IMG/VR virus record: IMGVR_UViG_3300029267_003325
Location: 1 to 50,769 of that record
DNA from: a virus
Reading direction: 5' to 3' (one strand)
Length of the DNA stretch: 50,769 nt
The translations under genes were made by a program, and so were the position numbers. The notes under the pieces are model-generated. The model worked only from the letters and a program-made list of their open reading frames with translations. It made no database searches and was not told the DNA's origin. Below, one piece after another: positions 8,340 through 34,185 of this stretch. The number at the start of each line of letters is the position of its first letter. The stretch's first letter is position 1.

Positions 8340-8410
8340 GAGCCATGAGTGTGGCGGATGCACGGCACCCTGCGAAGGTGCAAGAAGAAGTTCGACTCTT
8401 CTATGGCTCG
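8340..8410 (+). tRNA. tRNA-Arg (anticodon GCG)
   Basis: Acceptor GAGCCAT pairs with ATGGCTC. The D-stem is GTGT/GCAC with GG in the loop. The anticodon stem GCACC/GGTGC closes loop CTGCGAA, giving GCG, which reads CGC. The T-arm is AGAAG-TTCGACT-CTTCT. CCA is not encoded. The next gene starts three bases after it. Confidence 0.85.
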
Positions 8411-8412
8411 CT

Positions 8413-8589
8413 ATGAGAATTGATAAGAAAGACCTGGAGAAGATCAACGAACGGATGAAAGGCTGGACGGTGGATCGGGTAAGCTCCGGTTCAGGCGAAA
8501 AGCTCTTCATCTTCCATCTTTCAAAAGGGAAGAATAAGAGAACGGTAATTTTAGGTGCTAACGATTTAGGAGGTTGGTTAGAAAGATAA
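8413..8589 (+). CDS. Small hypothetical protein
   Basis: A 58-residue protein starting MRIDKKDLEKINERMKGWTV. The start is placed at ATG 8413, just after the tRNA; the longer in-frame version from 8338 would read through the tRNA. It ends GANDLGGWLER. No clear ribosome site, so initiation may depend on tRNA processing. Function unknown. Confidence 0.6.
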   Translation: MRIDKKDLEKINERMKGWTVDRVSSGSGEKLFIFHLSKGKNKRTVILGANDLGGWLER

Positions 8590-8644
8590 TGCTCACGATC
8601 ATACGCCAGTGCCAAAAACGGTGTTAATGCTCACGATCATACGC
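8588..8644 (+). repeat. Two 19-bp direct repeats, second within a hairpin
   Basis: AATGCTCACGATCATACGC occurs at 8588-8606 and again at 8626-8644, 38 bases apart. The second copy lies in a 10-bp inverted repeat (GTGTTAATGC ... GCATTAACAC) just before tRNA-Met. This could be a binding site, a processing signal or a duplication scar. Confidence 0.75.
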
Positions 8645-8652
8645 ATTAACAC

Positions 8653-8721
8653 AGCAGAGGAACTGGTGTTCAATTGCCTTTCATAAGGGCGATCTGGCGG
8701 GTTCGATCCCCGCCTCTGCTA
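8653..8721 (+). tRNA. tRNA with CAT anticodon (Met, or Ile if modified)
   Basis: Acceptor AGCAGAG/CTCTGCT, T-arm GCGGG-TTCGATC-CCCGC, anticodon loop TTCATAA with anticodon CAT. The D-arm is compact (GAAC-TGGT-GTTC). Initiator features are not clear. An Ile tRNA with modified C34 reading AUA cannot be excluded. Confidence 0.8.
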
Positions 8722-8746
8722 CTTGTTCCCGAACAGCGAACAAGTA
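8720..8746 (+). other. Hairpin directly after tRNA-Met
   Basis: TACTTGTTC and GAACAAGTA form a 9-bp perfect stem that starts at the tRNA 3' end. It may define the 3' end for processing or attenuate transcription into the endonuclease gene. There is no U-run. Confidence 0.6.
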
Positions 8747-8747
8747 G

Positions 8748-8801
8748 GTCGAACCCTTAAATTTTAAGACTTTTTTGGAGAAAAAGTTTGTGAGGTTCGA
8801 C
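8748..8801 (+). promoter_or_regulatory. Inverted repeat in the leader of the endonuclease gene
   Basis: GTCGAACC (8748-8755) and GGTTCGAC (8794-8801) can pair. They resemble the two sides of a tRNA T-arm. They lie upstream of ATG 8813 and are followed by ACTCTTTTAGAG, a motif also seen before other endonuclease genes here (10354 and 12971). Confidence 0.5.
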
Positions 8802-8812
8802 TCTTTTAGAGT

Positions 8813-9811
8813 ATGGATACTCAAGAAATAGACAAACAAATTGTGGAGTTATACGATCAAGGTTTAACTTATAAAGAGATTCAAGAAAAACTTGACGTTT
8901 GTAGTGCAAGGGTCGCAAAGAATGTGAAGGGAAGAAGATCCCTGAGTGAATCGTCTCAGCTTTGCATTAAGAGAGGTCGTCGTCGATTGAGTGAAGATGG
9001 TCGAAAGCGACTTAGTGAAGCGGGGAAAAAAGCCGCAAAGAGGAATAGAAAATTTTGGACAAAACCAGAAAGAAAATTTAAGGAGATATTAAATTCATTG
9101 GGTATAGGAGTAAAGTTTCCTGATTATGTTAAGGAAATTTGTTCATTAGTTGATGATCCTAATCCTCGGATATGTTTTCAATATCCCATACAACGATACG
9201 TTTGTGATTATGTGGATGTTGAAAGCAAGATTGTTTTTAGAGTGAATGGAGATTTTTGGCACGCTAATCCGATTTTGTATAATGAATCGAATTTAACAGA
9301 CATTCAAAAACACAATCTGAGGCAAGATAAGAATGCAATGATATTCTTGAAAAAAAGGGGCTGGGAAGTTTGTGACGTTTGGGAGAGTGAGATTTACTGG
9401 AACATAACATTAGTGAAAGAGAAAATAATTAACATTTATGGGCCTCTGGCGAAATTGGCTATCGCATCGGTGTTACATACCGGGGATTCCCAGTTCAAGT
9501 CTGGGGAGGCCCACTTGGAAAATGATTGGTCTCATAAACTTAAAAAATTGTGGTTCAAGAAACCAAGAAAACCAAAAGTGAAAGAGAAAGAATGTTTGCA
9601 TTGCGAAAAGTTGTTTAAGCCAAAACAAAATAGAATTAGATATTGCTCGAAAGAGTGTGCAGATTTATCTCGCAGAAAAGTGGAAAGGCCCACAAAAAAG
9701 CAGTTGCAGAGAGAAATTAAAGAAATGTCTTGGCTTGCATTGGGAAGAAAATACAACGTTACCGATAGTGCTGTTCGCAAGTGGGCGAGAAACTATGGGC
9801 TGATTGAATGA
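8813..9811 (+). CDS. Vsr-like homing endonuclease with zinc knuckle and HTH
   Basis: This 332-residue protein has an N-terminal helix-turn-helix-like segment (residues 1-35) and a basic linker. A central nuclease-like domain at about 75-205 contains CDYVDVESKIVFRVNGDFWH and later KKRGWEVCDVWESEI, resembling very-short-patch-repair or DUF559-type PD-(D/E)xK folds found in phage homing enzymes. After a segment encoded by a tRNA gene (about 210-233) come a CLHCEKLF ... YCSKEC zinc knuckle and a C-terminal HTH. It lies directly after tRNA-Met. Free-standing homing endonucleases cut near related sites and spread by repair. The domain call is by eye. Confidence 0.75.
   Translation: MDTQEIDKQIVELYDQGLTYKEIQEKLDVCSARVAKNVKGRRSLSESSQLCIKRGRRRLSEDGRKRLSEAGKKAAKRNRKFWTKPERKFKEILNSLGIGVKFPDYVKEICSLVDDPNPRICFQYPIQRYVCDYVDVESKIVFRVNGDFWHANPILYNESNLTDIQKHNLRQDKNAMIFLKKRGWEVCDVWESEIYWNITLVKEKIINIYGPLAKLAIASVLHTGDSQFKSGEAHLENDWSHKLKKLWFKKPRKPKVKEKECLHCEKLFKPKQNRIRYCSKECADLSRRKVERPTKKQLQREIKEMSWLALGRKYNVTDSAVRKWARNYGLIE
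9440..9513 (+). tRNA. tRNA-Val (anticodon TAC), nested inside the endonuclease frame
   Basis: Acceptor GGGCCTC/GAGGCCC, D-arm GCGAAATTGGCTATCGC with GG, anticodon stem TCGGT/ACCGG with loop GTTACAT (TAC), and T-arm CCCAG-TTCAAGT-CTGGG. All arms pair. The tRNA lies entirely within the open reading frame 8813-9811 on the same strand. Confidence 0.93.
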
Positions 9812-9969
9812 AACCGAAATCGACAAAACCGAAGAAAAAGAAACAGAAGCCCGACGTAGAGGCTGTCGAAACAGCCGATTGGGTAGAAGACCTTAAAGAT
9901 AAGGAGTACAAGCTTTCGGAGAAATACAAAAAAGGAAAAAGGCTCGCAGAAAACTACAAAGCCAAATGA
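9808..9969 (+). CDS. Small Lys-rich protein
   Basis: A 53-residue frame beginning MKPKSTKPKKKKQKPD, coupled by ATGA to the endonuclease gene and by ATGA to the next gene. The basic N-terminus and charged helical C-terminus suggest nucleic-acid contact. Function unknown. Confidence 0.6.
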   Translation: MKPKSTKPKKKKQKPDVEAVETADWVEDLKDKEYKLSEKYKKGKRLAENYKAK

Positions 9970-10244
9970 CTTGGAGACTTTGGCGACGTACACTTTGGTG
10001 GAGGTTCCTGAATTGGCTTGGGAAACCAGGACGTTGGTGGGAACACGAAAAAACCATCAAGGGTGAAGCGAGGGGAATACAACACAGTGACACAATTTAC
10101 ACGAAGGAGTTTCAATTATGGTGGTGTAGCGGATTGCGAAAATGTTACAAACATCCGTATCCTCAAGTTTGGCACATCATCCAAAGCATTGAATGTCCTA
10201 AGTGCAAAAAGGAGAGAATAGAAAAGAAACTTAGAGAAGAATAA
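9966..10244 (+). CDS. Hypothetical protein with CxxC
   Basis: A 92-residue protein, unusually Trp-rich at its start (MTWRLWRRTLWWRFLNWLG), with CPKCKKERIEKK near the end. The C-terminal CxxC could be half of a zinc ribbon, with an earlier Cys/His pair as partner. Its stop abuts the tRNA-Asp. Confidence 0.65.
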   Translation: MTWRLWRRTLWWRFLNWLGKPGRWWEHEKTIKGEARGIQHSDTIYTKEFQLWWCSGLRKCYKHPYPQVWHIIQSIECPKCKKERIEKKLREE

Positions 10245-10315
10245 GGTGCTGGGGTGTGATAGTAGCACAACGGCCTGTCGAGCCGTAAGAGCGGGAGCGT
10301 AACCCGTCAGCACCG
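10245..10315 (+). tRNA. tRNA-Asp (anticodon GTC) with altered elbow
   Basis: Acceptor GGTGCTG/CAGCACC, D-stem GTGT/GCAC, anticodon stem ACGGC/GCCGT with loop CTGTCGA (GTC), T-stem GCGGG/CCCGT. The D-loop GATAGTA has A18-G19 in place of GG. The T-loop AGCGTAA has G55 instead of U55 and A54. Confidence 0.85.
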
Positions 10316-10340
10316 CTTGGGTTTGAATCACTTGAGGGAA

Positions 10341-10378
10341 TTTGAACCTTCTTACTCATTTAGAGTAGGAGGTTCAAA
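10341..10378 (+). promoter_or_regulatory. Hairpin that sequesters the ribosome site of the HNH gene
   Basis: TTTGAACCT (10341-10349) pairs with AGGTTCAAA (10370-10378), which ends right at ATG 10379 and includes part of the AGGAGG ribosome site. The loop carries ACTCATTTAGAG. Such leaders delay translation of T4 homing endonucleases until a late promoter fires downstream of the 5' arm. Confidence 0.6.
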
Positions 10379-11053
10379 ATGCCATACAAAGACCCAGAAA
10401 AACAAAAAGAGTATTTAAGAGAACACTACAAAAGAAACAAAAAGGAATACCAACTTAAAGCCAAAAAGTTGAGGGAGGATCGGCAGACGAAGCTAAGACA
10501 ACTTAAGTGTGAAGCAGCCTGTTGTATTTGCGGTGAGGATGATCCAAGATGTTTGGATTTCCATCATCGAGATCCCAAAGAGAAAAACTTTGGAATAACA
10601 ACGGCTGTCAGGGACAGAGTTGCTTGGGACACAATTTTGGAAGAAATACAAAAGTGTGATTTGATATGTGCCAATTGTCATAGAAAGGGTCACGCAAATT
10701 CTGTCCCAAGTGGAAGATTAAAGAAAGGAAATCGCAGCCCGCAATACGAACAGAACAAGAGACGAATAGAAAGAGCAAGACAGTTTATCAAACAAGTGAG
10801 GGGAAATTCAAAGTGCAAAAATTGTGGTGAGAGTAGACCAGAATGTCTTGATTTTCACCATCGCCATGGTAAGGATTTTACAATATCCAAATTGGTTGTT
10901 CGGAAAGCGACAATACCAAAATTGAAAGAAGCCATAGCAAGATGTGATGTACTTTGTGCTAATTGTCACCGAATAGAACATGGCGGCAATATTTGGGAAC
11001 AGGATTCAAATGTCAAGCGTAACACAAAAACTAACGAAGAAAGGACTGATTAG
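10379..11053 (+). CDS. HNH-type endonuclease with duplicated domain
   Basis: A 224-residue protein with two copies of one zinc HNH-like unit. Copy 1 (about residues 45-105) has CCICGEDDPRCLDFHHRD and later LICANCHRKGH. Copy 2 (about 143-200) has CKNCGESRPECLDFHHRH and LCANCHRIEH. Each has the paired Cys and the HH of a beta-beta-alpha metal nuclease. The internal duplication suggests both half-sites could be cut, or one copy is for binding. It sits just after tRNA-Asp, and its 3' end overlaps the RNA-repair nucleotidyltransferase by 44 bases. Confidence 0.8.
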   Translation: MPYKDPEKQKEYLREHYKRNKKEYQLKAKKLREDRQTKLRQLKCEAACCICGEDDPRCLDFHHRDPKEKNFGITTAVRDRVAWDTILEEIQKCDLICANCHRKGHANSVPSGRLKKGNRSPQYEQNKRRIERARQFIKQVRGNSKCKNCGESRPECLDFHHRHGKDFTISKLVVRKATIPKLKEAIARCDVLCANCHRIEHGGNIWEQDSNVKRNTKTNEERTD

Positions 11054-11924
11054 TCCCCCGTCATTCGTCCCCACGAATGTCATGTACGAGACAATCATGG
11101 GTTCGGAGGCATATGGGGTCAGCACAGACAGTAGCGACATGGACGTGTACGGTTTCTGTGTTCCGACGAAGGAAATCGTTTTTCCGCACTTGGCAGGAGA
11201 GTTGGCACAATTTGACTGGAAGCCCGATAAGAAACGGTTCGGGCAGTTTTTGGCGGATCATGTTGATGTCGAAGACGAGAGGGGCGGAAAAGGTCGCCAG
11301 TATGACCTCACGATTTTCAACATCGTGAAGTTCTTCAAGCTGGTGACGGAGAACAACCCGAACGTCGTGGACAGCTTGTATACCCGGCAAGAGTGTGTAT
11401 TGCACATTACTCAGGTCGGAAACATGGTCCGAGAGAATCGGCACATTTTCATCCACAAAGGATGTTGGAATACTTTTAAGGGCTACGCTTTCAGTCAGCT
11501 TCACAAGATGAGGACGAAAGAGCCCGAAGGAAAAAGAAAGGAGATAAGGGAAGAATACGGATACGACGTGAAATTCGCGTACCACGTAGTTAGGCTTTTA
11601 GACGAAGTGGAACAATTGCTTATGCATGGGGATATGGACCTTATGCAAGCAAGAGAACACATGAAAGCTGTTCGACGTGGTGAAGTTCCTGAAGAGGAAA
11701 TTCGTGAATGGTTTAGTGTGAAGGAAAAAGAACTGGAGAAGTTGTATCACCAAAGTTCTCTTCCTGATCGGCCAGACAAAAAGAGAATCAAGAAATTGCT
11801 CCTTCAATGTCTGGAACATCACTATGGTAGCCTTGACAAATGCATCGTTAATCCCGATGCAGCAGTTACGGCATTAAGAGAAATCCAGGAGGTTTTGGAA
11901 AAGAACAGGAATCTATTGGGGTGA
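11010..11924 (+). CDS. RlaP-like nucleotidyltransferase (RNA repair)
   Basis: A 304-residue protein of the polymerase-beta-like nucleotidyltransferase fold. ETIMGSEAYGVSTDSSDMDVYG is the GS...D-x-D metal-binding motif of this superfamily and occurs about 25 residues in. The rest is helical. Families with this layout (DUF/RlaP type) are often next to RNA ligases in repair operons, and here an RNA ligase follows by three bases. The likely role is template-free nucleotide addition or end healing of cleaved RNA. ATG 11010 is chosen because AGGA precedes it; ATG 10980 is possible. Confidence 0.75.
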   Translation: MSSVTQKLTKKGLISPPSFVPTNVMYETIMGSEAYGVSTDSSDMDVYGFCVPTKEIVFPHLAGELAQFDWKPDKKRFGQFLADHVDVEDERGGKGRQYDLTIFNIVKFFKLVTENNPNVVDSLYTRQECVLHITQVGNMVRENRHIFIHKGCWNTFKGYAFSQLHKMRTKEPEGKRKEIREEYGYDVKFAYHVVRLLDEVEQLLMHGDMDLMQAREHMKAVRRGEVPEEEIREWFSVKEKELEKLYHQSSLPDRPDKKRIKKLLLQCLEHHYGSLDKCIVNPDAAVTALREIQEVLEKNRNLLG

Positions 11925-11927: not shown

Positions 11928-12791
11928 ATGGGTTACATGCACATTGAAAATTTGTATAAGTGCCAGGAACTCCTTATGTTTAAGGAGTGCTATGCACTTG
12001 AGAAGATCCACGGTACGTCTGCTCATATCACGTATAAGATACAGGACGGAAAGCCGATGTTGTCGTTCTTCTCCGGTGGTGTAGACCATGTGAACTTCGT
12101 CGCTCTGTTCGACAAAAATACCCTCATGGAAAAGATGAAGGGCATTGATCGAGTGGAAATCTACGGCGAAGCCTACGGCGGGAAGTGCCAGGGTATGTCG
12201 GCAACTTACGGCAAAGTTCTGAAATTCGTCGTGTTTGATGTAAAAATCAACGATTGTTGGTTGGCTGTACCGCAGGCCGAAGAGTTCGCCAAAGATCTTG
12301 GTTTAGAGTTTGTAGCTTACGAAAAGATTTCAACTGATTTGGATGAGATTGACAAGGAACGAGATCGTGATTCGGTTCAGGCCGTTAGGAATGGAATGGG
12401 TGAGGGCCATCAGCGTGAAGGCGTGGTTCTCCGTCCGCTTATTGAACTGAGGAAAAATAACGATGACCGAATTATCTCGAAACATAAAAGAGATGAGTTC
12501 AAAGAAACAAAGACGAAAAGAGAAGTAAGTCCTGAACAATTAAAGATTTTGGATGATGCCAAAGCCATCGCAGAAGAGTGGGTAACTCCTATGCGTTTGG
12601 CACACATTCTCGATAAGATCGAGAATCCTTGTATGGAAAAGATGCGTGAAATTATTGCAGCTATGTGTGAGGATGTGCAGCGTGAAGCTGAGGGTGAAAT
12701 TGTTTGGGATAGGGCGGTTTCCAAAGCAGTGGGTAAGGCTACGGCATTGGCAACTAAGAAATATTTTCAAGACAAATTACGAGAGGAATAA
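11928..12791 (+). CDS. RNA ligase (Rnl2/DRB0094-like)
   Basis: A 287-residue ATP-dependent ligase. ALEKIHGTSAHI holds the nucleotidyl-lysine motif I (Lys 26). YGEAYGGKCQG resembles motif III region, REGVVLRP fits motif IV and SKHKRDEF fits motif V. It would seal 3'-OH/5'-phosphate RNA nicks. With the adjacent nucleotidyltransferase it forms a repair pair, and the many nearby tRNA genes suggest tRNAs cut by host anticodon nucleases as substrates. The substrate is inference; the ligase motifs are direct. Confidence 0.85.
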   Translation: MGYMHIENLYKCQELLMFKECYALEKIHGTSAHITYKIQDGKPMLSFFSGGVDHVNFVALFDKNTLMEKMKGIDRVEIYGEAYGGKCQGMSATYGKVLKFVVFDVKINDCWLAVPQAEEFAKDLGLEFVAYEKISTDLDEIDKERDRDSVQAVRNGMGEGHQREGVVLRPLIELRKNNDDRIISKHKRDEFKETKTKREVSPEQLKILDDAKAIAEEWVTPMRLAHILDKIENPCMEKMREIIAAMCEDVQREAEGEIVWDRAVSKAVGKATALATKKYFQDKLREE

Positions 12792-12870: not shown

Positions 12871-12943
12871 GGGGGCTTAGCTCAGTTGAGAGAGCGTCTG
12901 GTTTGCAACCAGAAGGTCACCGGTTTGAGCCCGGTAGCCTCCA
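12871..12943 (+). tRNA. tRNA-Ala (anticodon TGC) with altered elbow
   Basis: Acceptor GGGGGCT/AGCCTCC includes the G3-U70 wobble that marks tRNA-Ala. D-arm GCTC-AGTTGAGA-GAGC, anticodon loop TTTGCAA (TGC), T-arm ACCGG-TTTGAGC-CCGGT. Position 19 is A and position 56 is U, replacing the usual G19-C56 pair. Confidence 0.92.
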
Positions 12944-12998: not shown

Positions 12999-13529
12999 AT
13001 GCAATATGTTTTTAAGGACGTTTGTGGAAAAAGGAGAAAGGGCTTTGTTAAGAATTGCCTGTTTTGCAAAGGAGAATTTTGGACCAGAATAGACCAAGAA
13101 GCTTTTTATTGCAGTAGAGATTGTGCAAGGAAAGCGGCTAGGAAGAGATACCCGTTGACTTGTGCAACATGCGGCAAAGAGTTCTTCAGGACAAAATCGA
13201 AAATGAAGAGTTCTAGAAGTGGATTCTATTTTTGCTCAAGACAATGTAAAGATAAAGCCCAAAGAGTAAAAGGGGGGATTAAGGAAATACAGCCTCCTCA
13301 TTACTCGACCGGGGAAGAGAAATACCGGGAACAATTTGAATTGGAGGAATTGGTTTGTGCAAGATGCGGGTATGATGAATTTGCTTCATGCGTAGAGATT
13401 CATCATAAAGATGGTAACCACGAAAACAACAAGAAAAGAAATTTGCTTCCGTTATGTCGTTGTTGCCATCGTGCCCTTCATCTAGGATTGTGGAGGTTAC
13501 AAGTTGGAAAAGAAATGCGGAATACATGA
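12999..13529 (+). CDS. HNH homing endonuclease with zinc fingers
   Basis: A 176-residue protein. Three Cys-rich units come first: CLFCKGEF ... YCSRDC (about residues 16-37), CATCGKEF ... YFCSRQC (about 48-74). The C-terminal nuclease has CARCGYDEF, VEIHHKDGNHENNKKRNLLP and LCRCCHRALH, the canonical zinc-HNH motif. ATG 12999 is chosen over upstream in-frame starts inside tRNA-Ala because GGAGG precedes it. It lies directly after tRNA-Ala, as other endonucleases here follow tRNAs. Confidence 0.85.
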   Translation: MQYVFKDVCGKRRKGFVKNCLFCKGEFWTRIDQEAFYCSRDCARKAARKRYPLTCATCGKEFFRTKSKMKSSRSGFYFCSRQCKDKAQRVKGGIKEIQPPHYSTGEEKYREQFELEELVCARCGYDEFASCVEIHHKDGNHENNKKRNLLPLCRCCHRALHLGLWRLQVGKEMRNT

Positions 13530-13680
13530 GTGCAAAAACGAACCCAACGTGTTTTGTCGCTGGGGAGGTCAAACGACCTCGGAAGCATATCTCTGCGATG
13601 AACATCGGCAAGAACTGTGGGAAAAATTAAGAGCCCCGGTTACAGCCGGGTTAATGTGGGTCGTTTTTGAAAAAGAGTAG
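13504..13680 (+). CDS. Small Cys/His-rich protein
   Basis: A 58-residue frame with TTG start and GGAGG eight bases upstream. CGIHECKNEP ... FCRWGG ... LCDEHRQELWEKL contains four Cys and His arranged like a small treble-clef or zinc ribbon. It overlaps the HNH gene end by 26 bases. Function unknown. Confidence 0.6.
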   Translation: MEKKCGIHECKNEPNVFCRWGGQTTSEAYLCDEHRQELWEKLRAPVTAGLMWVVFEKE

Positions 13681-13833
13681 ATGGTGAGAACTAAGTTCGA
13701 AGCCATGCGAGCAAAGACCTTGGGTGGAAAGGCTCGCGAATTTGTGTTCATTGACAATTTGGTTACGCACAGTGGTCTTTGTTTTGGGATGGGTGACCGC
13801 CCCCCAGCCAAAGCTGGGGGGCGGTTTGTTTAA
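13681..13833 (+). CDS. Doubtful small frame ending in a terminator
   Basis: A 50-residue frame starts directly after the previous stop, but its last 12 codons form the stem of a strong terminator. The first part (MVRTKFEAMRAKTLGGKARE) is protein-like. There is no ribosome site within range apart from upstream coding sequence, so it may not be translated. Confidence 0.3.
   Translation: MVRTKFEAMRAKTLGGKAREFVFIDNLVTHSGLCFGMGDRPPAKAGGRFV
13796..13831 (+). terminator. Intrinsic terminator, possibly bidirectional
   Basis: ACCGCCCCCCAGC and GCTGGGGGGCGGT form a 13-bp perfect stem with loop CAAA, followed by TTGTTT. It lies between plus-strand genes and the convergent minus-strand gene ending at 13830, so it could serve both. 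Confidence 0.9.
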
Positions 13834-14039
13834 CCCGAAGTAAAATCAAAATTTGTCCATTTAAATGGGGTCACTTTTGCCGTTAAATAATAAACCAAGT
13901 CAGCAGCAGTCGGCATATGATAAAGCTCTACACCAAGATATTCATAGGGATGAGTGCAATATTGAGGAGGATAAAGAGGCATTTTGGCACCGGTGCGACA
14001 AGCATTTTCATCTAATTTTAGCCATTCTTTAAATTCCAT
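13830..14039 (-). CDS. Small protein with capsid-targeting-like N-terminus
   Basis: A 69-residue protein starting MEFKEWLKLDENA. The F-x-x-W-L pattern at residues 3-7 followed by L-D-E matches the N-termini of five other proteins in this window and resembles the T4 capsid-targeting tag cleaved at [LI]-x-E. The rest is aromatic and rich in Tyr and Pro, with no known domain. CTAAATAC lies four bases before the ATG. The longer frame from 14078 is not used since it crosses that element. Confidence 0.75.
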   Translation of the reverse strand: MEFKEWLKLDENACRTGAKMPLYPPQYCTHPYEYLGVELYHMPTAADLVYYLTAKVTPFKWTNFDFTSG

Positions 14040-14043
14040 AATT

Positions 14044-14051
14044 GTATTTAG
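14044..14051 (-). promoter_or_regulatory. Late-promoter-like CTAAATAC
   Basis: On the minus strand CTAAATAC sits four bases upstream of the ATG at 14039. The same element precedes at least six other genes at almost the same distance. Confidence 0.6.
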
Positions 14052-14145
14052 TTTAACCCAAAGAAAATAAGGCACCATCGTCTAACTGTCATTATAGAGA
14101 ACAAACATGAATCCAAGATCGTACAAGAAAAGGGCTCACACTCTA

Positions 14146-14153
14146 CTAAATAC
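14146..14153 (+). promoter_or_regulatory. Late-promoter-like CTAAATAC
   Basis: CTAAATAC, preceded by ACTCTA, ends three bases before ATG 14157. There is no ribosome site between, so transcripts starting here would be nearly leaderless unless initiation is further upstream. Confidence 0.6.
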
Positions 14154-14156
14154 AGT

Positions 14157-15299
14157 ATGGCAAAGAAATCCGAAATCATTTTTGTTTTACACGCTTATCA
14201 ACCGCCATATCCAATTCAAGAACCTGAAGTTGTTCGACGTATTGTCAATAACACTTATCGTCCATTTGTTGAAGAGATCAATCGACGACAACATCTTAAA
14301 ATTGTTTTGAACATCCAAGGCTGCCTGACTAATATTCTTTGTGAGGAATATCCTGAAATTATTGAGCAAATAAGACAGGCAATTCAAGACGATAAGATTG
14401 AAATGCTCGATTCGGCCTGTTACCATCCGATCATGCCTCTCATTGATTGCAACTCTAGAAAATTGCAGATCGAGAAGCATCAAGCATTCAACAACGAAAC
14501 TTATGGACTAACAGAAAAACCGAGGGCCTTCTGGCCGCCCGAACAAGCTATTTCCACAGAAGTAGTCAAAGAGCTTGCCAACGAATATGAGGCTATTATC
14601 TGTCCGTCCAATACGCTTTTTCATTACCAACCAGGACGTTTGTACGCTATACGCAACGAAAGTAATCGAGCCCTGTTGCTTTGCAGAGACAAGGGCATTT
14701 CGAACCGCATCGCATTCCGACAGCATGGTGGAGTGGAAAGTGTCGTTTCCGAAATCCGCTACACTAGAGATCGATTAGGTGTGCCAATCGTTTTGGCAAT
14801 GGACATTGAAACTTTCGGAGAACATCAGCGAGGATACTTCGATTTCCTCTTCGCCCTACTCAACCACAGAAGTATTCGGTCGATTGGAACCGACGCTTTG
14901 GAATATCATGTCGATGAAAAGGATGAAATTGCCTCAACGACGTGGAGTACAGAAGACGAAGACAGAAATCGAGGCATCGCTTTCCCGTTATGGAACCACC
15001 CGCAAAATGCAATCCATCAGACGCAACATGCACACATGGCACTCCTGATTGCCGCTGCCAAAATTTCCGGTGCCGAAAAAAGCTGGAAGTTCCTAGCCGC
15101 CCAGCATTCGTGCCAATTCTGGTGGGCTCATGGCTTTGGCCATATGTGGTCCCCAAGCATGATCCGAAAAGGTTTCGATTTCCAACAAAACGTTCTCAAA
15201 GAAATTTGTGAGGGAATCGATTCGGCGGTAGCCGAATCGATTCTGGAACAGTCCAGGTATTTGTCTTGGCGACTTGATGAGACACTAAGAACTAGATAG
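14157..15299 (+). CDS. GH57-family glycoside hydrolase
   Basis: A 380-residue protein with the conserved regions of glycoside hydrolase family 57 in order. LHAYQPP (residues 11-17) fits region 1 and SACYHPIMPLI region 2. AFWPPEQAIS carries the likely nucleophile Glu. AMDIETFGEHQ carries the likely acid/base Asp. The family includes alpha-amylases and 4-alpha-glucanotransferases acting on alpha-glucans such as glycogen. At 380 residues it is near the core-domain length. It has no signal peptide, so it should act in the cytoplasm or virion. A CTAAATAC element before the ATG suggests late expression. Confidence 0.85.
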   Translation: MAKKSEIIFVLHAYQPPYPIQEPEVVRRIVNNTYRPFVEEINRRQHLKIVLNIQGCLTNILCEEYPEIIEQIRQAIQDDKIEMLDSACYHPIMPLIDCNSRKLQIEKHQAFNNETYGLTEKPRAFWPPEQAISTEVVKELANEYEAIICPSNTLFHYQPGRLYAIRNESNRALLLCRDKGISNRIAFRQHGGVESVVSEIRYTRDRLGVPIVLAMDIETFGEHQRGYFDFLFALLNHRSIRSIGTDALEYHVDEKDEIASTTWSTEDEDRNRGIAFPLWNHPQNAIHQTQHAHMALLIAAAKISGAEKSWKFLAAQHSCQFWWAHGFGHMWSPSMIRKGFDFQQNVLKEICEGIDSAVAESILEQSRYLSWRLDETLRTR

Positions 15300-16778: not shown

Positions 16779-16849
16779 CGGCGTGGAGTGTAACAGTAGC
16801 ATACGTCGTTCGGGACGACGGGGACCCAGTGCAATTCTGGGCACGCCGA
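16779..16849 (+). tRNA. tRNA-Pro (anticodon CGG) with altered elbow
   Basis: Acceptor CGGCGTG/CACGCCG with the C1-G72 pair typical of tRNA-Pro, anticodon stem CGTCG/CGACG with loop TTCGGGA (CGG), T-arm CCCAG-TGCAATT-CTGGG. The D-loop AACAGTA has A18-G19 and the T-loop has G55. Confidence 0.9.
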
Positions 16850-16853: not shown

Positions 16854-16927
16854 CGGCCTGGGGTGTGACGGAAAATGCATACGTGGTTTGGGACCACGGG
16901 GACACAGTTCGACTCTGTGCTGGCCGA
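16854..16927 (+). tRNA. tRNA-Pro (anticodon TGG), standard elbow
   Basis: Acceptor CGGCCTG/CTGGCCG (one T-T mismatch), anticodon stem CGTGG/CCACG with loop TTTGGGA (TGG), T-arm CACAG-TTCGACT-CTGTG. The D-loop keeps GG and the T-loop keeps TTC, unlike the neighbouring Pro tRNAs. Confidence 0.88.
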
Positions 16928-16931: not shown

Positions 16932-17004
16932 CAGCTAGTGGTGTTCAACAGTAGCATACGTGGTTTGGGGCCACGGGGACGAGATGCAAATTCTCGCTAG
17001 CTGA
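16932..17004 (+). tRNA. tRNA-Pro (anticodon TGG), second copy, altered elbow
   Basis: Acceptor CAGCTAG/CTAGCTG, anticodon stem CGTGG/CCACG with loop TTTGGGG (TGG), T-arm CGAGA-TGCAAAT-TCTCG. The D-loop has A18-G19 and the T-loop G55. It is nearly identical to the next tRNA, so the pair arose by tandem duplication. Confidence 0.9.
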
Positions 17005-17008: not shown

Positions 17009-17081
17009 CAGCGTGTGGTGTTCAACAGTAGCATACGTGGCTGGGGGCCACGGGGACGAGATGCAAATTCTCGCACGCTGA
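17009..17081 (+). tRNA. tRNA-Pro (anticodon GGG), altered elbow
   Basis: Acceptor CAGCGTG/CACGCTG, anticodon stem CGTGG/CCACG with loop CTGGGGG (GGG), T-arm CGAGA-TGCAAAT-TCTCG. D-loop A18-G19, T-loop G55. Together the four tandem tRNAs cover all Pro codons. Confidence 0.9.
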
Positions 17082-17836: not shown

Positions 17837-18037
17837 ATGAACATGTTGAGTCGAAAAATCGTTAGAGTAACCAAAACCGAGTTTGAGATGGAAGATGGTA
17901 CAATCCACCCGATTCTCTTTGATTTGGAGGAAACTCCGACAGTAGAGGAGTTTCAGGAACAATACGATGAATGGCTCAATGCGTTCCTTGAAAAAGGACT
18001 CATTGAGAATGAACGAACAGTTGTTGAGCATCGGTAA
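17837..18037 (+). CDS. Small protein overlapping the IS607 recombinase
   Basis: A 66-residue protein with AAGGAG before ATG. RKIVRVTKTEFEMEDGTIHP followed by an acidic helix EEFQEQYDEWLNAFLEKGL. Its last ten codons overlap the start of the recombinase gene, so the two are coupled and it may belong to the mobile element. Possible small regulator; no family recognised. Confidence 0.65.
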   Translation: MNMLSRKIVRVTKTEFEMEDGTIHPILFDLEETPTVEEFQEQYDEWLNAFLEKGLIENERTVVEHR

Positions 18038-18662
18038 GGCGGCTGACATCCTCGGTGTCTGCCTCGATACGCTCAGAGAATGGGATAAAGAAGGAAAGCT
18101 AGTTCCAGTAAAAACACCGGGAAACCACAGAAGGTACAGATTATCAGACATCAAAGCCTTCTGCGGCGAGATCGTGGAACACAAGAAAGAAAGTGAAGTC
18201 AAGGTCGCAACTTACGCAAGAGTAAGTTCCCACGAACAGAAGAAAAAGGGCGACCTAGAACGACAGAATAGGCGGCTACTGACTTATTGCGTCAAAAAGC
18301 AATACAAGGTCGTCAAATCCTACGAGGAAGTAGGATCGGGCATGTCAGACACCAGAGCGAAGTTGAGAAACTTGTTCGGGTTGGTCAGGGATAAGAAAAT
18401 CAACAAGGTTGTGGTCGAGCATAAAGATCGTTTGACCCGCTTCAACTTTCAATTCTTGGACGATTTCTTCACCAGTCATGGTGTTCAGATTGAGTGGATG
18501 GAGAACGTGTTGGGCAAGTCTTATGAGCAGGAACTTGTAGAAGACATGCTCACATTGATGTCTTCGTTCAGCAATAAGATTTACGGCAAGCGTAGTGCTG
18601 AAAATCGCAGGAAGAAGAAAGAACAGAAGTTGGCGGCAGAACAAGAGGTAGCAGCGATATGA
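18009..18662 (+). CDS. tnpA: IS607-family serine recombinase (TnpA)
   Basis: A 217-residue transposase. The N-terminus LLSIGKAADILGVCLDTLRE with GNHRRYRLSDI is a MerR-like HTH that binds element ends. From about residue 65, VATYARVSSHEQKKKGDLERQ carries the serine-recombinase active site (Ser in RVSS and Arg in ERQ). EHKDRLTRF and the end of the domain fit the resolvase fold. Length is normal and no frameshift is seen, so it is probably functional. ATG 18009 is chosen since the IS607 N-terminus begins there. Confidence 0.92.
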   Translation: MNEQLLSIGKAADILGVCLDTLREWDKEGKLVPVKTPGNHRRYRLSDIKAFCGEIVEHKKESEVKVATYARVSSHEQKKKGDLERQNRRLLTYCVKKQYKVVKSYEEVGSGMSDTRAKLRNLFGLVRDKKINKVVVEHKDRLTRFNFQFLDDFFTSHGVQIEWMENVLGKSYEQELVEDMLTLMSSFSNKIYGKRSAENRRKKKEQKLAAEQEVAAI

Positions 18663-18988
18663 CAGAAGATGAAATGCACACATTTGTTAAACAAGCAAAC
18701 AAAATCCACCAATTAACCCTGCAAACAGATCATTATATTCCTTTAGATGAACAACCGACCTTGACGATTAAATTGGGTGATCGACAGTTTGTTGCTATTG
18801 AATACTGGTGGGAGGATGATGACTTTGTTTTTGTTACAGATAATGATGAAAAATATCGTTGTGTCAATGCGTATCCGGTTTCTATGAGAATGGATGGTCT
18901 TGATTACAGTTCCACTGATGAAATTGTGATGGTGGAGAATAAAATACGGTATAATAAGGAGCAAATTGAAGATACAGAGGGGCTATAA
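18659..18988 (+). CDS. Extra gene between tnpA and tnpB
   Basis: A 109-residue acidic protein coupled to tnpA by ATGA and overlapping the tnpB start by 23 bases. It has strand-like segments (TLTIKLGDRQFVAIEYWWED) and an acidic DDDFVFVTDNDEK stretch. No family recognised. Its tight overlaps on both sides suggest it moves with the element or captures its expression. It could be a phage gene trapped in the element. Confidence 0.7.
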   Translation: MTEDEMHTFVKQANKIHQLTLQTDHYIPLDEQPTLTIKLGDRQFVAIEYWWEDDDFVFVTDNDEKYRCVNAYPVSMRMDGLDYSSTDEIVMVENKIRYNKEQIEDTEGL

Positions 18989-20072
18989 AACCGAATTGAG
19001 GTTGAACAATAAGCAGAGAACCGCATGTCTAAAACATGCGGGTGTTGCGAGGTTCGCATATAATTGGGGCATGAACCAGAAAAAGGTGGCAATGGAAGTC
19101 AAAGACAAGATTCCAAACGCCATTGAACTTCATCGTCGCCTCAACGCCCTCAAGAAAGACGCATTCCCTTGGATGTATGAAGTCAGCAAATGTAGCCCAC
19201 AGGAAGCCCTCAGAAACCTAGATCGTGCCTTTGGTAACTTCTTCAAGAAGCGAGGTAAGTTCCCGAAATTCAAGAGCAAGAGGAAAGGCATTGGAGGCTT
19301 CCGATTAACAGGAACGATCAAAATAACAGAGAACACAATCCAACTTCCGAGACTTGGAAAATTGAAACTCAAAGAAAGTGGATACTTGCCGACCAATGCC
19401 AAGATATTGTCGGCAACTGTAAGTGAAAGAGCAGGTCGATGGTTTGTCAGCATCCAAGTTGAAGAAGATATGTCAGAACACAATATCCAGAAGGACGAAC
19501 ATGATGTGGTCGGAATGGATTTGGGGATCAAAACACTAGCGACCGTGAGCGATGGTACGACCTTTGAGAACCCGAAACCGCTCAAGCAAAAACTAAGGAA
19601 ACTCAAACGGCTCAATCAAAATTTGAGTCGCAAACAAAAAGGAAGTCAGAACCGAAAGAAAGCGGCGAACCGCCTTGCTCGGCTTTGCTTCAAGATCAGC
19701 AACATCCGTAAAGATACATTGCACAAGATGACAACCGCATTAGCGAAAACCAAGCGTGTGATTGGCATTGAAGACCTGAATGTATCAGGAATGTTGAAGA
19801 ACAGAAGATTATCTCGATCAATCGCAGATATTGGATTTTTCGAGTGTAGAAGGCAACTGGAATACAAAGGAACTTGGTATGGGTGTAGGATCGTTCCTGT
19901 GGATCGGTTCTTCCCATCTAGCAAGACTTGCTCAATCTGTGGTCAAATCAATGACAATTTGACCTTAGCAGACCGAGAATGGGATTGCGATGGATGTGGT
20001 ACTCACCACGACCGAGACTTCAATGCCAGTTGTAATTTAGAATATATCGCCGCCAGTTCGACGGAGATGTGA
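18966..20072 (+). CDS. tnpB: TnpB RNA-guided nuclease
   Basis: A 368-residue TnpB. N-terminal KIQRGYKTELRLNNKQ is typical. The RuvC catalytic residues are present: GMDLGIKTLA (Asp near 185), IGIEDLNVSGM (Glu) and HDRDFNASCNL (Asp). The zinc finger is CSICGQ ... CDGCGTHH. TnpB cuts DNA guided by an omega RNA made from the element's right end and helps retain the element. A TTG start is used. It looks intact. Confidence 0.93.
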   Translation: MKIQRGYKTELRLNNKQRTACLKHAGVARFAYNWGMNQKKVAMEVKDKIPNAIELHRRLNALKKDAFPWMYEVSKCSPQEALRNLDRAFGNFFKKRGKFPKFKSKRKGIGGFRLTGTIKITENTIQLPRLGKLKLKESGYLPTNAKILSATVSERAGRWFVSIQVEEDMSEHNIQKDEHDVVGMDLGIKTLATVSDGTTFENPKPLKQKLRKLKRLNQNLSRKQKGSQNRKKAANRLARLCFKISNIRKDTLHKMTTALAKTKRVIGIEDLNVSGMLKNRRLSRSIADIGFFECRRQLEYKGTWYGCRIVPVDRFFPSSKTCSICGQINDNLTLADREWDCDGCGTHHDRDFNASCNLEYIAASSTEM

Positions 20073-25862: not shown

Positions 25863-25934
25863 GGGCCGTGGGTGTGAAAGATAGCACGGTAGGCTTCGAA
25901 CCTGCAAGAAGGGGAGCGTTACCTCTACGGCCTA
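25863..25934 (+). tRNA. tRNA-Arg (anticodon TCG) with altered elbow
   Basis: Acceptor GGGCCGT/ACGGCCT (G1-U72), D-stem GTGT/GCAC, anticodon stem GTAGG/CCTGC with loop CTTCGAA (TCG), T-stem AGGGG/CCTCT. The D-loop GAAAGATA has A18-G19, and the T-loop AGCGTTA has A54-G55-C56. Confidence 0.87.
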
Positions 25935-27754: not shown

Positions 27755-27960
27755 ATTGTTTCAACGAAAAAAACGAACACATTGGTTCCCTTATCGAAAT
27801 TGCACGTTTTGATGGGGACGACCCAATAAGCGAGAGTGTGGTTAGATGGTGCCCTCAATGTGGTGCAGTGGTTGTTGACATAGAATGCGATGGAAGGATT
27901 TATCCTGGTCGAGTACGTAAAATGCAATTCCCAAGGGCCGGTTCCGAGAAAGCTGATTGA
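27751..27960 (+). CDS. Small zinc-binding protein
   Basis: A 69-residue protein starting at an ATG that overlaps the upstream TGA. VVRWCPQCGAVVVDIECDG gives a CxxC knuckle and a further Cys. Its 3' end overlaps a tRNA-like element. Function unknown. Confidence 0.68.
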   Translation: MNCFNEKNEHIGSLIEIARFDGDDPISESVVRWCPQCGAVVVDIECDGRIYPGRVRKMQFPRAGSEKAD

Positions 27961-28012
27961 CGAAAGCTTCATCGCACCAATCGGCAGCAGGGTTCGACTC
28001 CCTGCCGGTCCA
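27935..28012 (+). other. tRNA-like element with abnormal middle
   Basis: GGGCCGG/CCGGTCC makes a 7-bp acceptor-like stem and CAGGG-TTCGACT-CCCTG is a perfect T-arm, followed by A and CTT as in intact tRNAs. The middle does not give a normal D- or anticodon arm. Instead GCTGATTG pairs with CAATCGGC over 8 bp with an 18-nt loop. It may be a decayed tRNA, or one interrupted by a small insertion. Confidence 0.5.
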
Positions 28013-28024
28013 CTTAGGAGAGAA

Positions 28025-31236: not shown

Positions 31237-31239
31237 GCT

Positions 31240-31970: not shown

Positions 31971-32167
31971 GCTTAGAAGACAACCCATTGTTGAATTGTC
32001 GGTTCCCGGATCACATTATGTGGCGTCAGGCCACCGAGCAGCAAAAGGCCCAGGCGATTGCTGTCGAGCAACTACGCATAGAAGCGAAAGACAGCAGTAT
32101 GATGACCGGATTGGAATGGTTAAAGCAGCAGAAAATCCAAGGAGAGGATTATGAAAGATCTGATTAA
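31967..32167 (+). CDS. Small hypothetical protein
   Basis: A 66-residue protein coupled by ATGA. MSLEDNPLLNCRFPDHIMWR then a helix rich in Gln and Glu (QQKAQAIAVEQLRIEAKD). Function unknown. Confidence 0.68.
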   Translation: MSLEDNPLLNCRFPDHIMWRQATEQQKAQAIAVEQLRIEAKDSSMMTGLEWLKQQKIQGEDYERSD

Positions 32168-32474
32168 GGCACTTTGGTGGTGGCCCATTCTGTTCTTTGC
32201 TCTGTTCTTACAGATACAATTTGGCTGTGTCCCGGTAGACAAAAAACCCAGGCAAAAGCCCAAGCCGCCGACCGTCGAAGGGATTGTGACGGATGTTACC
32301 ATCATTCCCGAAGATGGTCATGATTCTATCGTCCTGATAGAATTTGAAGATGGCAGAATCCAAAAACTAAGGATGAGAAATTCAGCGACATTTCAGTTTC
32401 AGAAGAATAAGTGGAACGTAATCGAATACGAAATACTATACGGTAGTATAACCAACGTCAGAACAAGGGAATGA
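32151..32474 (+). CDS. Membrane-anchored or lipoprotein-like protein
   Basis: A 107-residue protein with an N-terminal hydrophobic stretch (LWWWPILFFALFLQIQFGC) ending in Cys, possibly a degenerate lipobox. The exported part has strands (EGIVTDVTIIPEDGHDSIVL) like a small beta barrel. Localised to envelope by prediction; role unknown. Confidence 0.7.
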   Translation: MKDLIKALWWWPILFFALFLQIQFGCVPVDKKPRQKPKPPTVEGIVTDVTIIPEDGHDSIVLIEFEDGRIQKLRMRNSATFQFQKNKWNVIEYEILYGSITNVRTRE

Positions 32475-32475
32475 C

Positions 32476-32829
32476 ATGAAACTGACTCGTCAACAAATGG
32501 CTGTTTTCGTAAAAGGTCAAATCTTGGCCATCACATCCGACCCAGATGAGGCGGAAAGACGGGCTACGGGTTACTACTACATACTAGCCGAGGATATATG
32601 GAAAACAATCTCTATCTCAGAACAGGTTTCCGAAGCAACCAAAGAGCGTCTAGTCGCTTTCCTCAAGGAGAATTATTTCATGGAGGGCGAGAACAAATGC
32701 GACATCTTCCAATTCGGAGTGGCGATGGGCACATTTCTGAAAAACTCGCCCAAGGAAGAGCAGCTTCCAATCCGAATGATGATGTTCGAATTTCACGATA
32801 CTCCCAAATATAGGTTTGACGAAATCTAG
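32476..32829 (+). CDS. Hypothetical protein
   Basis: A 117-residue helical protein starting MKLTRQQMAVFVKGQILAIT. Charged, no transmembrane segment. Starts one base after the previous stop. No family recognised. Confidence 0.68.
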   Translation: MKLTRQQMAVFVKGQILAITSDPDEAERRATGYYYILAEDIWKTISISEQVSEATKERLVAFLKENYFMEGENKCDIFQFGVAMGTFLKNSPKEEQLPIRMMMFEFHDTPKYRFDEI

Positions 32830-32882
32830 GTTGAGGTTTTTTGGAAGATCTAGTATGTTGTATCTCTACGGAGGGAGAGACA

Positions 32883-33500
32883 ATGAAGATAGATCCAGAT
32901 AACATTACAAACTTCAATCTCACAAAGCATCAATTAGAAAAGACCCTTTTGTTTTGGATATGTGCGGCAGCCCAGAATGGGCACACAGCATCTAATTCTC
33001 TGGAAATGATGTTCGCCAAGATCAGGAAGTTTTTGAAATTTGCGGGACATAAGCCAAAGAGGAGTCCTTTTGCCGCTTTGCGGCAAAAGGACTCTTTACA
33101 CAGAGGGAGGCCAGGGGCTAAAGGGAAGTGGCTAGAGGCTTTGATGAGGATTTGCGGTGTTCGTTTCTATAAATACAAGTCTAAGGCGGCAATCAATTTG
33201 GCCTATAGCGATTTGAACTTGAGAACTTGCACTGTCGATGATCTTGAGGAGATCAACGGGATCGGGCCGAAAACGGCTCGATGTTTCTTGATTCACAGCA
33301 GGCCGGATCAGCAGTTTGCGGGATTGGACACGCATATTTTGAAACATCTAAGGGCCGAAGGAATCGAAGCTCCCCTTAGCACACCTTCCGGCAGGCGGTA
33401 TCAAGAATTGGAACAAGAGTTTTTGCAATTGGCCGAGGCAGCGGGGATGAGTCCCGCTGACTACGATTTGATGATTTGGAAGAAGTATCGAATCAAATGA
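32883..33500 (+). CDS. HhH-GPD-like DNA glycosylase domain protein
   Basis: A 205-residue protein with GGAGGGAG before ATG 32883. The C-terminal half has LEEINGIGPKTARCFLIHS, a helix-hairpin-helix with Lys, then FAGLDTHILKHLRAE, where Asp fits the catalytic Asp of endonuclease III-type glycosylases. The usual iron-sulfur cluster is absent. Likely base-excision repair, or DNA-base scrutiny. Between the N-terminal helix and the core is a 15-bp perfect palindrome in the coding region. Confidence 0.7.
   Translation: MKIDPDNITNFNLTKHQLEKTLLFWICAAAQNGHTASNSLEMMFAKIRKFLKFAGHKPKRSPFAALRQKDSLHRGRPGAKGKWLEALMRICGVRFYKYKSKAAINLAYSDLNLRTCTVDDLEEINGIGPKTARCFLIHSRPDQQFAGLDTHILKHLRAEGIEAPLSTPSGRRYQELEQEFLQLAEAAGMSPADYDLMIWKKYRIK
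33062..33094 (+). repeat. Perfect 15-bp palindrome inside the HhH gene
   Basis: GAGTCCTTTTGCCGC-TTT-GCGGCAAAAGGACTC. It is in frame and adds about 11 residues between two domains of the HhH protein. A strong stem in an mRNA could pause translation or attenuate transcription. Confidence 0.9.
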
Positions 33501-33751
33501 CGGTAGAATTAGGGTTAGTGATCGGTGTCGAGTGTCAAGGGCCGAGACCTTACGGTCTTACTTGGCAACAGTTTGAGCTTCGACCGGGTATGGCGAAGGA
33601 TAGCTATCCTTGTATGTGTCCCAGGTGTAAAAGTGGTCTTAGATTTACCAAAAAGTGGCTTGGCAAGACGAAGAAAACCAAATGCGATTGTTGCGGTTTT
33701 CCACTATTCATCACAATAGGGGTACACAGAATCGAATATCAGTTGCCATGA
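33497..33751 (+). CDS. Zinc-ribbon protein
   Basis: An 84-residue protein coupled by ATGA. CMCPRCKSGL and KCDCCGFPLF form two CxxC knuckles about 20 residues apart, a zinc ribbon. Basic linker in between (KKWLGKTKKT). Likely nucleic-acid binding; role unknown. Confidence 0.72.
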   Translation: MTVELGLVIGVECQGPRPYGLTWQQFELRPGMAKDSYPCMCPRCKSGLRFTKKWLGKTKKTKCDCCGFPLFITIGVHRIEYQLP

Positions 33752-34113
33752 TTCATATCGACATCAGCAATCCCGAATTTCTTCCGACGCTCGCGTCTAA
33801 CATGAAGCGAGAGGCGACCTTTGCTGCCAAGGGCGAGTCCAAGAAGGTGTCGGTTGACTTTCTTTTGAATCACTTAAGGCTATTCGAACAGGATGGAAAC
33901 AGATACACACTAATGCTTTCGGTACTTGCCGAACACGGCGAAAGGTACTGGCATCTTTCGATAGGCGGCTTGCCCGCTACTACAGTCATTCCTCCTGACC
34001 AACTCTGTTGGTATCTTATTGACCACATCCTGGGTTTAGACGGAGTCTTGGAAGGTGAAAACCATGATAAGCAGCGACCCGGTGTGCGGCATTTCTTAAA
34101 GAAAATCATTTAG
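33748..34113 (+). CDS. Hypothetical protein
   Basis: A 121-residue protein coupled by ATGA. It begins MIHIDISNPEFLPTLASNMK and has strand-rich YTLMLSVLAEHGERYWHLSI. No family recognised. tRNA-Thr begins one base after its stop. Confidence 0.72.
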   Translation: MIHIDISNPEFLPTLASNMKREATFAAKGESKKVSVDFLLNHLRLFEQDGNRYTLMLSVLAEHGERYWHLSIGGLPATTVIPPDQLCWYLIDHILGLDGVLEGENHDKQRPGVRHFLKKII

Positions 34114-34114
34114 T

Positions 34115-34185
34115 GCCACCGTAGCTCAATGGTAGAGCCCATGTTCGGTAAACATGAGATTTGAGTTCGATTCTCAGCGGTGGCT
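34115..34185 (+). tRNA. tRNA-Thr (anticodon GGT), C33 variant
   Basis: Acceptor GCCACCG/CGGTGGC, D-arm GCTC-AATGGTA-GAGC, anticodon stem CATGT/ACATG with loop TCGGTAA (GGT), T-arm TTGAG-TTCGATT-CTCAG. Position 33 is C. Standard elbow. Confidence 0.93.

Follow-up and report, generated by a model that had tools for sequence, protein, structure and literature searches.

The contact between G18 of the D-loop and pseudouridine 55 of the T-loop is regarded as invariant in tRNA. A stretch of viral DNA in which several tRNA genes encode neither partner raises the question of whether these are functional tRNAs built on a different elbow, products of neutral drift or of matching to unusual hosts, or simply decayed genes. 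The canonical class I elbow combines G18-pseudouridine 55 with G19-C56 and U54-A58 (PMC4810234, PMC7912444). Here, the window is the whole stretch of DNA that was analysed, 50,769 nucleotides in length, and its tRNAs were called with a cloverleaf scan that is blind to loop sequence.

Five window tRNAs, all on the plus strand, combine A18-G19 in the D-loop with G55-C56 in the T-loop, as an earlier note on this DNA had claimed: tRNA-Asp(GTC) at 10245..10315 (D-loop GATAGTA, T-loop AGCGTAA), tRNA-Pro(CGG) at 16779..16849 (AACAGTA, TGCAATT), the second copy of tRNA-Pro(TGG) at 16932..17004 and tRNA-Pro(GGG) at 17009..17081 (both TCAACAGTA, TGCAAAT), and tRNA-Arg(TCG) at 25863..25934 (GAAAGATA, AGCGTTA). 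The canonical G18-U55 is absent from all five, and A18-G55 stands in its place. tRNA-Ala(TGC), on the plus strand at 12871..12943 (D-loop AGTTGAGA, T-loop TTTGAGC), has G18-A19 with U55-U56, i.e. the A19-U56 exchange that was also claimed, and the 19-56 Watson-Crick pair is kept in all six, as G-C in the five A18/G55 tRNAs and as A-U in Ala(TGC). The remaining 12 readable tRNAs (Glu TTC twice, Glu CTC, Val TAC, Val GAC, Pro TGG copy 1, Arg GCG, Arg CCT, Arg TCT, Thr CGT, Thr GGT and Ala GGC) carry D-loop GG and T-loop UUC, again in agreement with the earlier reading; Met(CAT) at 8648 was excluded from the comparison on account of its irregular D-arm. Under random pairing, the chance that the same 5 of 18 tRNAs carry both changes is, by our arithmetic, 1 in 8,568, or 1 in 560 when the three Pro paralogues are counted once. 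Since most window tRNAs are canonical, a strong general need of the phage to avoid U55 is unlikely.

Decay of the genes, or an artefact of assembly or scanning, might be suspected from the failure of standard tools to find them: ARAGORN detected none of the five in the window, and Rfam RF00005 (gathering score 29 bits) reported Asp(GTC) at 45.3 bits and left Pro(CGG), Pro(TGG) copy 2, Pro(GGG) and Arg(TCG) unreported. Most relatives sharing the elbow do pass the RF00005 gathering score. All five genes have intact stems (stem scores of 19–20 of 21 possible in the cloverleaf scan), four paired arms, U33 and a 7-base T-loop, and signs of a pseudogene such as broken stems or unpaired changes are absent from them. 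The pairing of the D-T contact is substituted rather than lost, unlike that of mitochondrial type II tRNAs, which lack such a contact. Pro(TGG) copy 1 (16854..16927, plus strand), a paralogue of copy 2 with the canonical GG/UUC elbow, is identical to it at 29 of 30 positions from the D-stem to the variable loop, yet both loops are switched, and the acceptor-stem differences between Pro(GGG) and Pro(TGG) copy 2 are paired changes. Near-identical copies of four of the altered tRNAs lie within the span of a second contig (L009), which stops short of Arg(TCG). With loop changes that are paired and not random in several hundred distinct tRNAs, the reading as decay or artefact, scarcely credible in our estimation, is refuted by covariation.

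Two T-loop subtypes, unremarked in the earlier note, can be distinguished among the altered window tRNAs, UGCAAWU in Pro and AGCGUWA in Asp and Arg. The three Pro tRNAs keep the canonical U54-A58 with a pyrimidine at position 60, and Asp and Arg(TCG) have A54-U58-A60, with the 54-58 pair inverted from U-A to A-U. In the wider set the subtypes at 54-58 are A-U, G-G or C-A/C-C, with position 60 changing alongside, and the 54-58-60 triads covary (UA-Y; AU-A in 78 of 79, GG-A in 30 of 34 and AA-G in 10 of 11). As a separate observation, G8-G14 occurs in window Asp, Arg(TCG), Arg(GCG) and Pro(TGG) copy 1, independently of elbow type; a tie between G8-G14 and the elbow was rejected, as 8-14 covaries in its own right (38 of 56 tRNAs with G8 have G14) and both elbow classes carry the combination.

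Covariation between the two loops extends well beyond the window. When 2.9 million viral contigs were scanned with a fixed D-arm, the tRNAs verified as cloverleaves comprised 48 with A18/G55, 5 with A18/U55, 1 with G18/G55 and at least 73 with G18/U55 (Fisher p about 5e-28 for the 18-55 association). Among 1,424 by-catch tRNAs remaining after thinning at 80% identity, U55C56 accompanied GG in 1,051 cases versus 9, and G55C56 accompanied AG in 238 versus 8; other T-loop/D-loop combinations were UU-GA (24), UA-GU (8) and GG-AC (6). A18 is thus rarely found without G55 (5 versus 48 with it in viruses, 9 versus 238 in the thinned by-catch), so that the counter-evidence named in the earlier note, related tRNAs with A18 but no G55 about as often, was looked for and did not appear. 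Position 19-56 exchanges as a Watson-Crick pair (G-C, A-U, U-A and C-G), and 24 of 28 UU-type by-catch tRNAs have the GA/UU pairing of window Ala(TGC). Among same-anticodon relatives whose sequences agree to 80% or more outside the loops, 14 pairs differ at both the 18 and the 55 sites. The earlier proposal that these are compensating, selected and functional variants gains support from such matched changes. The trait is not common to the wider group defined by the window's RNA ligase: near relatives found with that gene (49–62% identity, the near-identical L009 apart) had no altered elbows in their tRNAs, and the 56 tRNAs of a distant relative with the same ligase (G001) are all canonical. 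Neither among 50,697 phage records nor in plasmids did similarity searches with the altered tRNAs reveal a clear relative with A18/G55, and in stretches of Lak-A2 and of a Rhizobium phage only the 19-56 A-U form was present.

The A18/G55 elbow also occurs in bacteria. In Patescibacteria it is found in chromosomal tRNAs, including an initiator-type tRNA; taking one initiator match per genome, 24 are G18/U55, 3 are A18/G55 and none of the 27 is mixed. Random Patescibacteria gave 10 / 0 / 1 in the series that reads 48 / 5 / 1 / at least 73 in viruses. The carriers are ordinary chromosomal tRNAs with no evident conflict setting. Verrucomicrobia have arrays of about 20 tRNAs, with U55 missing from nearly every T-loop. 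On this comparison of sequences, the matched A18/G55 swap is a real alternative tRNA design, found in many large phages and some bacteria, and its presence in Patescibacteria chromosomes and Verrucomicrobia arrays makes a purely viral evasion account too narrow.

The target of TruB in the T-arm is GUUYRANYC (PMC7912444), and the five window tRNAs do not match it, having no U55; the AGCGUWA loops of Asp and Arg(TCG) lack U54 as well. By this rule the main pseudouridine-making enzyme should not modify these tRNAs. The earlier suggestion of reduced recognition by modification enzymes therefore holds, as a prediction, for pseudouridine 55 (PMC7912444); its other part, escape from host cleavage, is plausible, and only the setting among RNA-repair genes points that way. 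A different account would have the elbow adapted to, or inherited from, hosts without TruB, in which U55 would carry no particular advantage. Of 22 Patescibacteria chosen for their A18/G55 tRNAs, 3 had a TruB match, versus 125 of 192 random ones (p about 4e-6), as this account would have it. However, within the random Patescibacteria the figures are 5 of 11 genomes with A18/G55 (picked by eye, 10 of the 11 cloverleaf-verified) versus 120 of 181 (p = 0.2), so that lineage explains much of the hand-picked contrast, and TruB is present in 13 of 13 Verrucomicrobia carrying the elbow. Loss of TruB as the cause was accordingly rejected, and we regard host matching in general as improbable.

The window also encodes RNA repair. 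An RlaP nucleotidyltransferase of the RNA repair pathway (10980..11924, plus strand; Pfam PF10127, E 3.2e-18) adjoins an Rnl2-like RNA ligase (11928..12791, plus strand; Pfam PF09414, E 5.6e-13; TIGR02307, E 2e-11, below its cut-off), which sits between the Asp and Ala tRNAs, and one Verrucomicrobia tRNA array has RtcB and Ro60 (Rsr) genes. An RNA ligase is present in 16 of 25 phage records with the A18/G55 elbow versus 4 of 25 others (p = 0.001), and in 14 of 18 versus 2 of 11 when only records of 120 kb or more are counted, an enrichment that may stem in part from lineage or tRNA number. Jumbo phages are described with tRNA arrays and RNA-repair modules, and, as here, many tRNAs stand beside RlaP with an ATP-grasp RNA ligase, or RtcB with TROVE/Ro60; unlike here, changed elbows go unmentioned in the available portion of that survey (PMC7824862). 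Some phage tRNAs are altered to resist anticodon nucleases, at the sites in the anticodon loop where these enzymes cut (PMC10264068). The window tRNAs resemble these in being phage-borne and in their proposed part in surviving host tRNA attack, but the changes described here lie in the elbow, and their resistance is only putative.

The literature searched, a scope outside which key combinatorial tRNA studies fall, yielded no account of an elbow with A18-G55. In vivo suppressor-tRNA selections reportedly tolerated non-standard 18-55 pairs. The staphylococcal peptidoglycan tRNA-Gly has no pseudouridine 55, with GUGC replacing GTPsiC, and a D-loop UU; it is a single glycine species acting outside translation, whereas here the D-loop has AG and many isoacceptors are affected, including an initiator-like one. 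UGNRA-type T-loops, with G at the second position, are known from rRNA, RNase P and riboswitches, and an A is often intercalated in them. The Pro-type loops (UGCRANU) appear to match this pattern, for which no description at the D-T contact of tRNAs was found in the literature searched.

We consider it probable that the A18/G55 genes encode working tRNAs with an alternative elbow that folds without pseudouridine 55; the likeliest reason for keeping it would be independence of the host under tRNA attack. As in the canonical elbow, a cloverleaf with a 7-base T-loop has its loops linked by one D-loop purine and the 19-56 Watson-Crick pair; unlike it, 18-55 is A-G instead of G-U and there is no site for pseudouridine 55. 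A18 would lie between bases 57 and 58 of the T-loop, the place of G18, and touch G55 where U or pseudouridine 55 would be, an exact contact suggested by the covariation, and with 19-56 still paired the D- and T-loops would still lock and preserve the L-shape. By established enzyme rules, a tRNA without U55 would be barred from TruB-made pseudouridine 55; A54, G54 and C54 subtypes would also forfeit m5U54, and A18 would abolish the Gm18 site. Such tRNAs would fold and function without the elbow-modifying enzymes of the host. RNase P, RNase Z and CCA-adding enzymes recognise the elbow, as do modification enzymes and the ribosome. A18/G55 tRNAs might be less visible to host factors reading the standard elbow, which would aid translation when host tRNAs are attacked; for a protective role of this elbow taken alone, we would put the chances a little short of even.

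Neutral compensatory drift, in which A18-G55 is just another acceptable solution and nothing is gained by losing pseudouridine 55, is somewhat less probable again, although a serious contender. Entry would be where selection on single genes is weak, as in redundant phage tRNAs or small genomes. The many alternative solutions at 18-55, 19-56 and 54-58-60 do resemble wandering on a structural plateau, and Patescibacteria show the change in single tRNAs only. Drift would, however, scatter the alternative elbow, and strong clustering is seen instead: 139 of 498 by-catch tRNAs are alternative in loci caught by that elbow, versus 9 of 668 in canonical-caught loci, and whole arrays of many isoacceptors have a common alternative elbow. 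Returning to working tRNAs kept for host independence, a broader and distinctly speculative extension, which we think rather unlikely, is a shielded class of tRNAs, i.e. spare sets in phages and some bacteria with elbows recoded against host elbow-reading and elbow-modifying enzymes, kept together with genes for RNA repair (RlaP with a ligase, or RtcB with Ro60) as a reserve for translation in conflict.

If the proposed explanation is true, the tRNA elbow would have alternative codes, reached by matched substitutions that are widespread across phages, Patescibacteria and Verrucomicrobia, and pseudouridine 55 would be dispensable in natural tRNAs, including an apparent initiator. Standard tools would be overlooking some tRNA genes, and A18/G55-type elbows could be used in engineered tRNAs that evade host modification. 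The question of why phages carry many tRNAs would become testable at a new site, the elbow.

The window record is linear (50.8 kb, IMG/VR), and its tRNAs were called by a cloverleaf scan that is blind to loop sequence. The elbows described in the earlier note are all recovered: Asp(GTC), Pro(CGG), Pro(GGG), Arg(TCG) and the second of two tandem Pro(TGG) copies carry A18-G19 with G55-C56 on intact stems, Ala(TGC) pairs G18-A19 with U55-U56, and the remaining 12 readable tRNAs have the canonical GG and UUC. ARAGORN called none of the five altered tRNAs in the window, and Rfam reported Asp alone among them. A second contig, near-identical to the window, carries the four altered tRNAs within its span. 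Beyond the earlier note, the five fall into two T-loop subtypes: UGCAAWU in the Pro tRNAs, with U54-A58 retained, and AGCGUWA in Asp and Arg(TCG), where the 54-58 pair is inverted from U-A to A-U. The tandem paralogues Pro(TGG)-1 (16854..16927; loops GACGGAAAAT and UUCGACU) and Pro(TGG)-2 (16932..17004; loops UCAACAGUA and UGCAAAU) are identical at 29 of 30 positions from D-stem to variable loop, and differ in class in both loops.

CCA is encoded in none of the window tRNAs (8340-34185), and nearly all have CT, mostly CTT, after the discriminator base, perhaps as a processing signal. tRNA-Val(TAC) (9440-9514) lies on the same strand as its enclosing open frame (8813-9811), the product of which looks like a putative homing-type endonuclease, and a tRNA-like stretch (27937-28015) combines a good T-arm (GGGTTCGACTCCC) with irregular D and anticodon arms. 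Directly after the Pro tRNA cluster is an IS607-like element (17967-20072), comprising a serine resolvase with a MerR-type helix-turn-helix and then a TnpB-like frame. The window also holds a Guanidine-II riboswitch match (39857-39901; 34.2 bits, above the gathering score) upstream of ORF 40046-40699, and three proteins (309, 4140, 7014) with a common Tat-like start, nearly identical in two of them (MNRRDFLKGTAAAGAAAVLPL).

We ran four pattern scans over 2.9 million viral contigs; they kept the D-arm fixed as GTGT...xGTA GCAY and drew chiefly on one D-arm type. Raw matches were 105 for A18/G55, 33 for A18/U55, 11 for G18/G55 and over 120 for G18/U55; virus records are fragments. A18 without G55 is not equally frequent: among the matches listed, those with a full cloverleaf number 48 A18/G55, 5 A18/U55, 1 G18/G55 and at least 73 G18/U55 (Fisher p about 5e-28). 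The counted sequences are mutually related and p values therefore overstate independence, but the direction of the association is not in doubt. The 48 verified A18/G55 tRNAs span His, Asn, Trp, Met, Gln, Gly, Phe, Ile and others.

So that the retrieving patterns could not dictate the result, every other tRNA in all 458 fetched loci was also counted, with matches to those patterns dropped and thinning at 80% identity. In this by-catch, U55C56 tRNAs have a GG D-loop in 1,051 cases and AG in 9, and G55C56 tRNAs have AG in 238 and GG in 8; since the loop-blind scan requires good stems, such frequencies are lower bounds. C55 also occurs, together with G18 (n=23), and 19-56 is swapped as a Watson-Crick pair (UU-GA 24, UA-GU 8, GG-AC 6, GA-AU 3). 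Within G55C56 tRNAs, positions 54, 58 and 60 vary as a triad: U-A with Y60, A-U with A60 (78/79), G-G with A60 (30/34) and A-A with G60 (10/11). Across the pool, 14 same-anticodon pairs at least 80% identical outside the loops differ at both 18 and 55, and half-switched forms, such as a Verrucomicrobia Asp with G18/G55, are uncommon. A further form, a U19-G56 wobble, is probable in Verrucomicrobia Pro(TGG) from four loci (L369, L377, L406, L515); their T-loop reads UGG, and AGUCUUUA and AGUAUUCA are examples of their D-loops.

The canonical elbow has G18 inserted between 57 and 58 in contact with pseudouridine 55, and a G19-C56 base pair (PMC4810234). As 18 and 55 change in concert between G-U, A-G and G-C, and 19-56 remains Watson-Crick paired, docking of the D- and T-loops appears to be kept. 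A natural reading is that A18 N6 would lie opposite G55 O6, with G55 taking over the turn otherwise made by U55. The pseudouridine 55 synthase TruB requires GUUYRANYC (PMC7912444), so it follows from known enzyme rules that the five altered window tRNAs lack TruB-made pseudouridine 55; U54 is also missing in AGCGUWA loops, and by the same rules Gm18 is impossible at A18. Loss of host TruB was tested as a cause of the altered elbow and proved not to be a clean one.

A single scan across 84,980 species genomes of bacteria and archaea, mostly metagenome-assembled and possibly including viral contigs, found 85 matching stretches; among the matches listed 72 fold as tRNAs, chiefly from Verrucomicrobia (Asn, Lys, Gln, His) and Patescibacteria (His, Pro, Met). 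In 192 evenly drawn Patescibacteria genomes, verified tRNAs number 10 A18/G55, 0 G18/G55 and 1 A18/U55. The initiator-type tRNA-Met pattern has a single match in each of 27 of these 192 genomes (24 G18/U55, 3 A18/G55, none mixed), so that, as far as the pattern covers, the A18/G55 form looks like the sole initiator in three Patescibacteria, and would then be a working tRNA.

The altered elbow is unevenly distributed among phages, making up 139 of 498 by-catch tRNAs in loci caught by altered patterns versus 9 of 668 in canonical-caught loci. Some arrays are nearly all converted to non-U55 forms. In one Verrucomicrobia genome (L516, L517) essentially all array tRNAs lack U55, except Leu(TAA), which is canonical and lies about 7 kb away; a second Verrucomicrobia array (L515) has a single canonical Leu among about 20 tRNAs, and a 203-kb phage (L149) has U55 in only a few of about 26. 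The Verrucomicrobia with converted arrays have many further tRNAs dispersed in the genome, and the U55-free statement covers the arrays. Structure-neutral drift could produce the covariation, but this clustering is not easily produced by it.

The setting points to RNA repair. The window tRNAs flank a nucleotidyltransferase (RlaP) beside an Rnl2-like RNA ligase, described as a repair pair of jumbo phages facing tRNA cleavage (PMC7824862), and in L515 the U55-free tRNAs are interspersed with RtcB (TIGR03073 family) and an Rsr/Ro60 homologue (6932-8125 and 13431-15080). RNA ligase PF09414 occurs in 16 of 25 altered-elbow phage records versus 4 of 25 canonical ones (p = 0.001), and, with records restricted to those of 120 kb or longer, in 14/18 versus 2/11; RtcB by itself does not differ in this way (4 versus 3 phage records). 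A 206-aa release-factor protein in the window (48306-48926), with an RF-1 domain and only the end of a PCRF domain, is possibly a rescue factor, which fits the repair theme. Against a role in surviving tRNA attack, many phage tRNAs beside repair genes are canonical, as in G001, a distant relative by RNA ligase. This 365-kb phage record (L010, L055-L058) has at least 56 tRNAs, a near-full set with standard elbows where read, and ARAGORN also calls a CTA-anticodon tRNA in it.

Two reviews treat 18-55 and 19-56 as conserved (PMC4810234, PMC7912444), and a review of non-canonical tRNAs reports that tRNA-Pyl and mitochondrial tRNAs have lost these motifs, with no mention of an A-G swap. We found no description of the A18-G55 elbow in the open-access literature covered, and priority is uncertain. 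We file the molecule as a tRNA with a non-canonical yet internally consistent elbow. The repair genes in the window and L515 and the PF09414 enrichment fit, without proving, a putative role of the altered elbow in surviving attack on tRNAs, in line with the anticodon-loop changes reported in phage tRNAs (PMC10264068).
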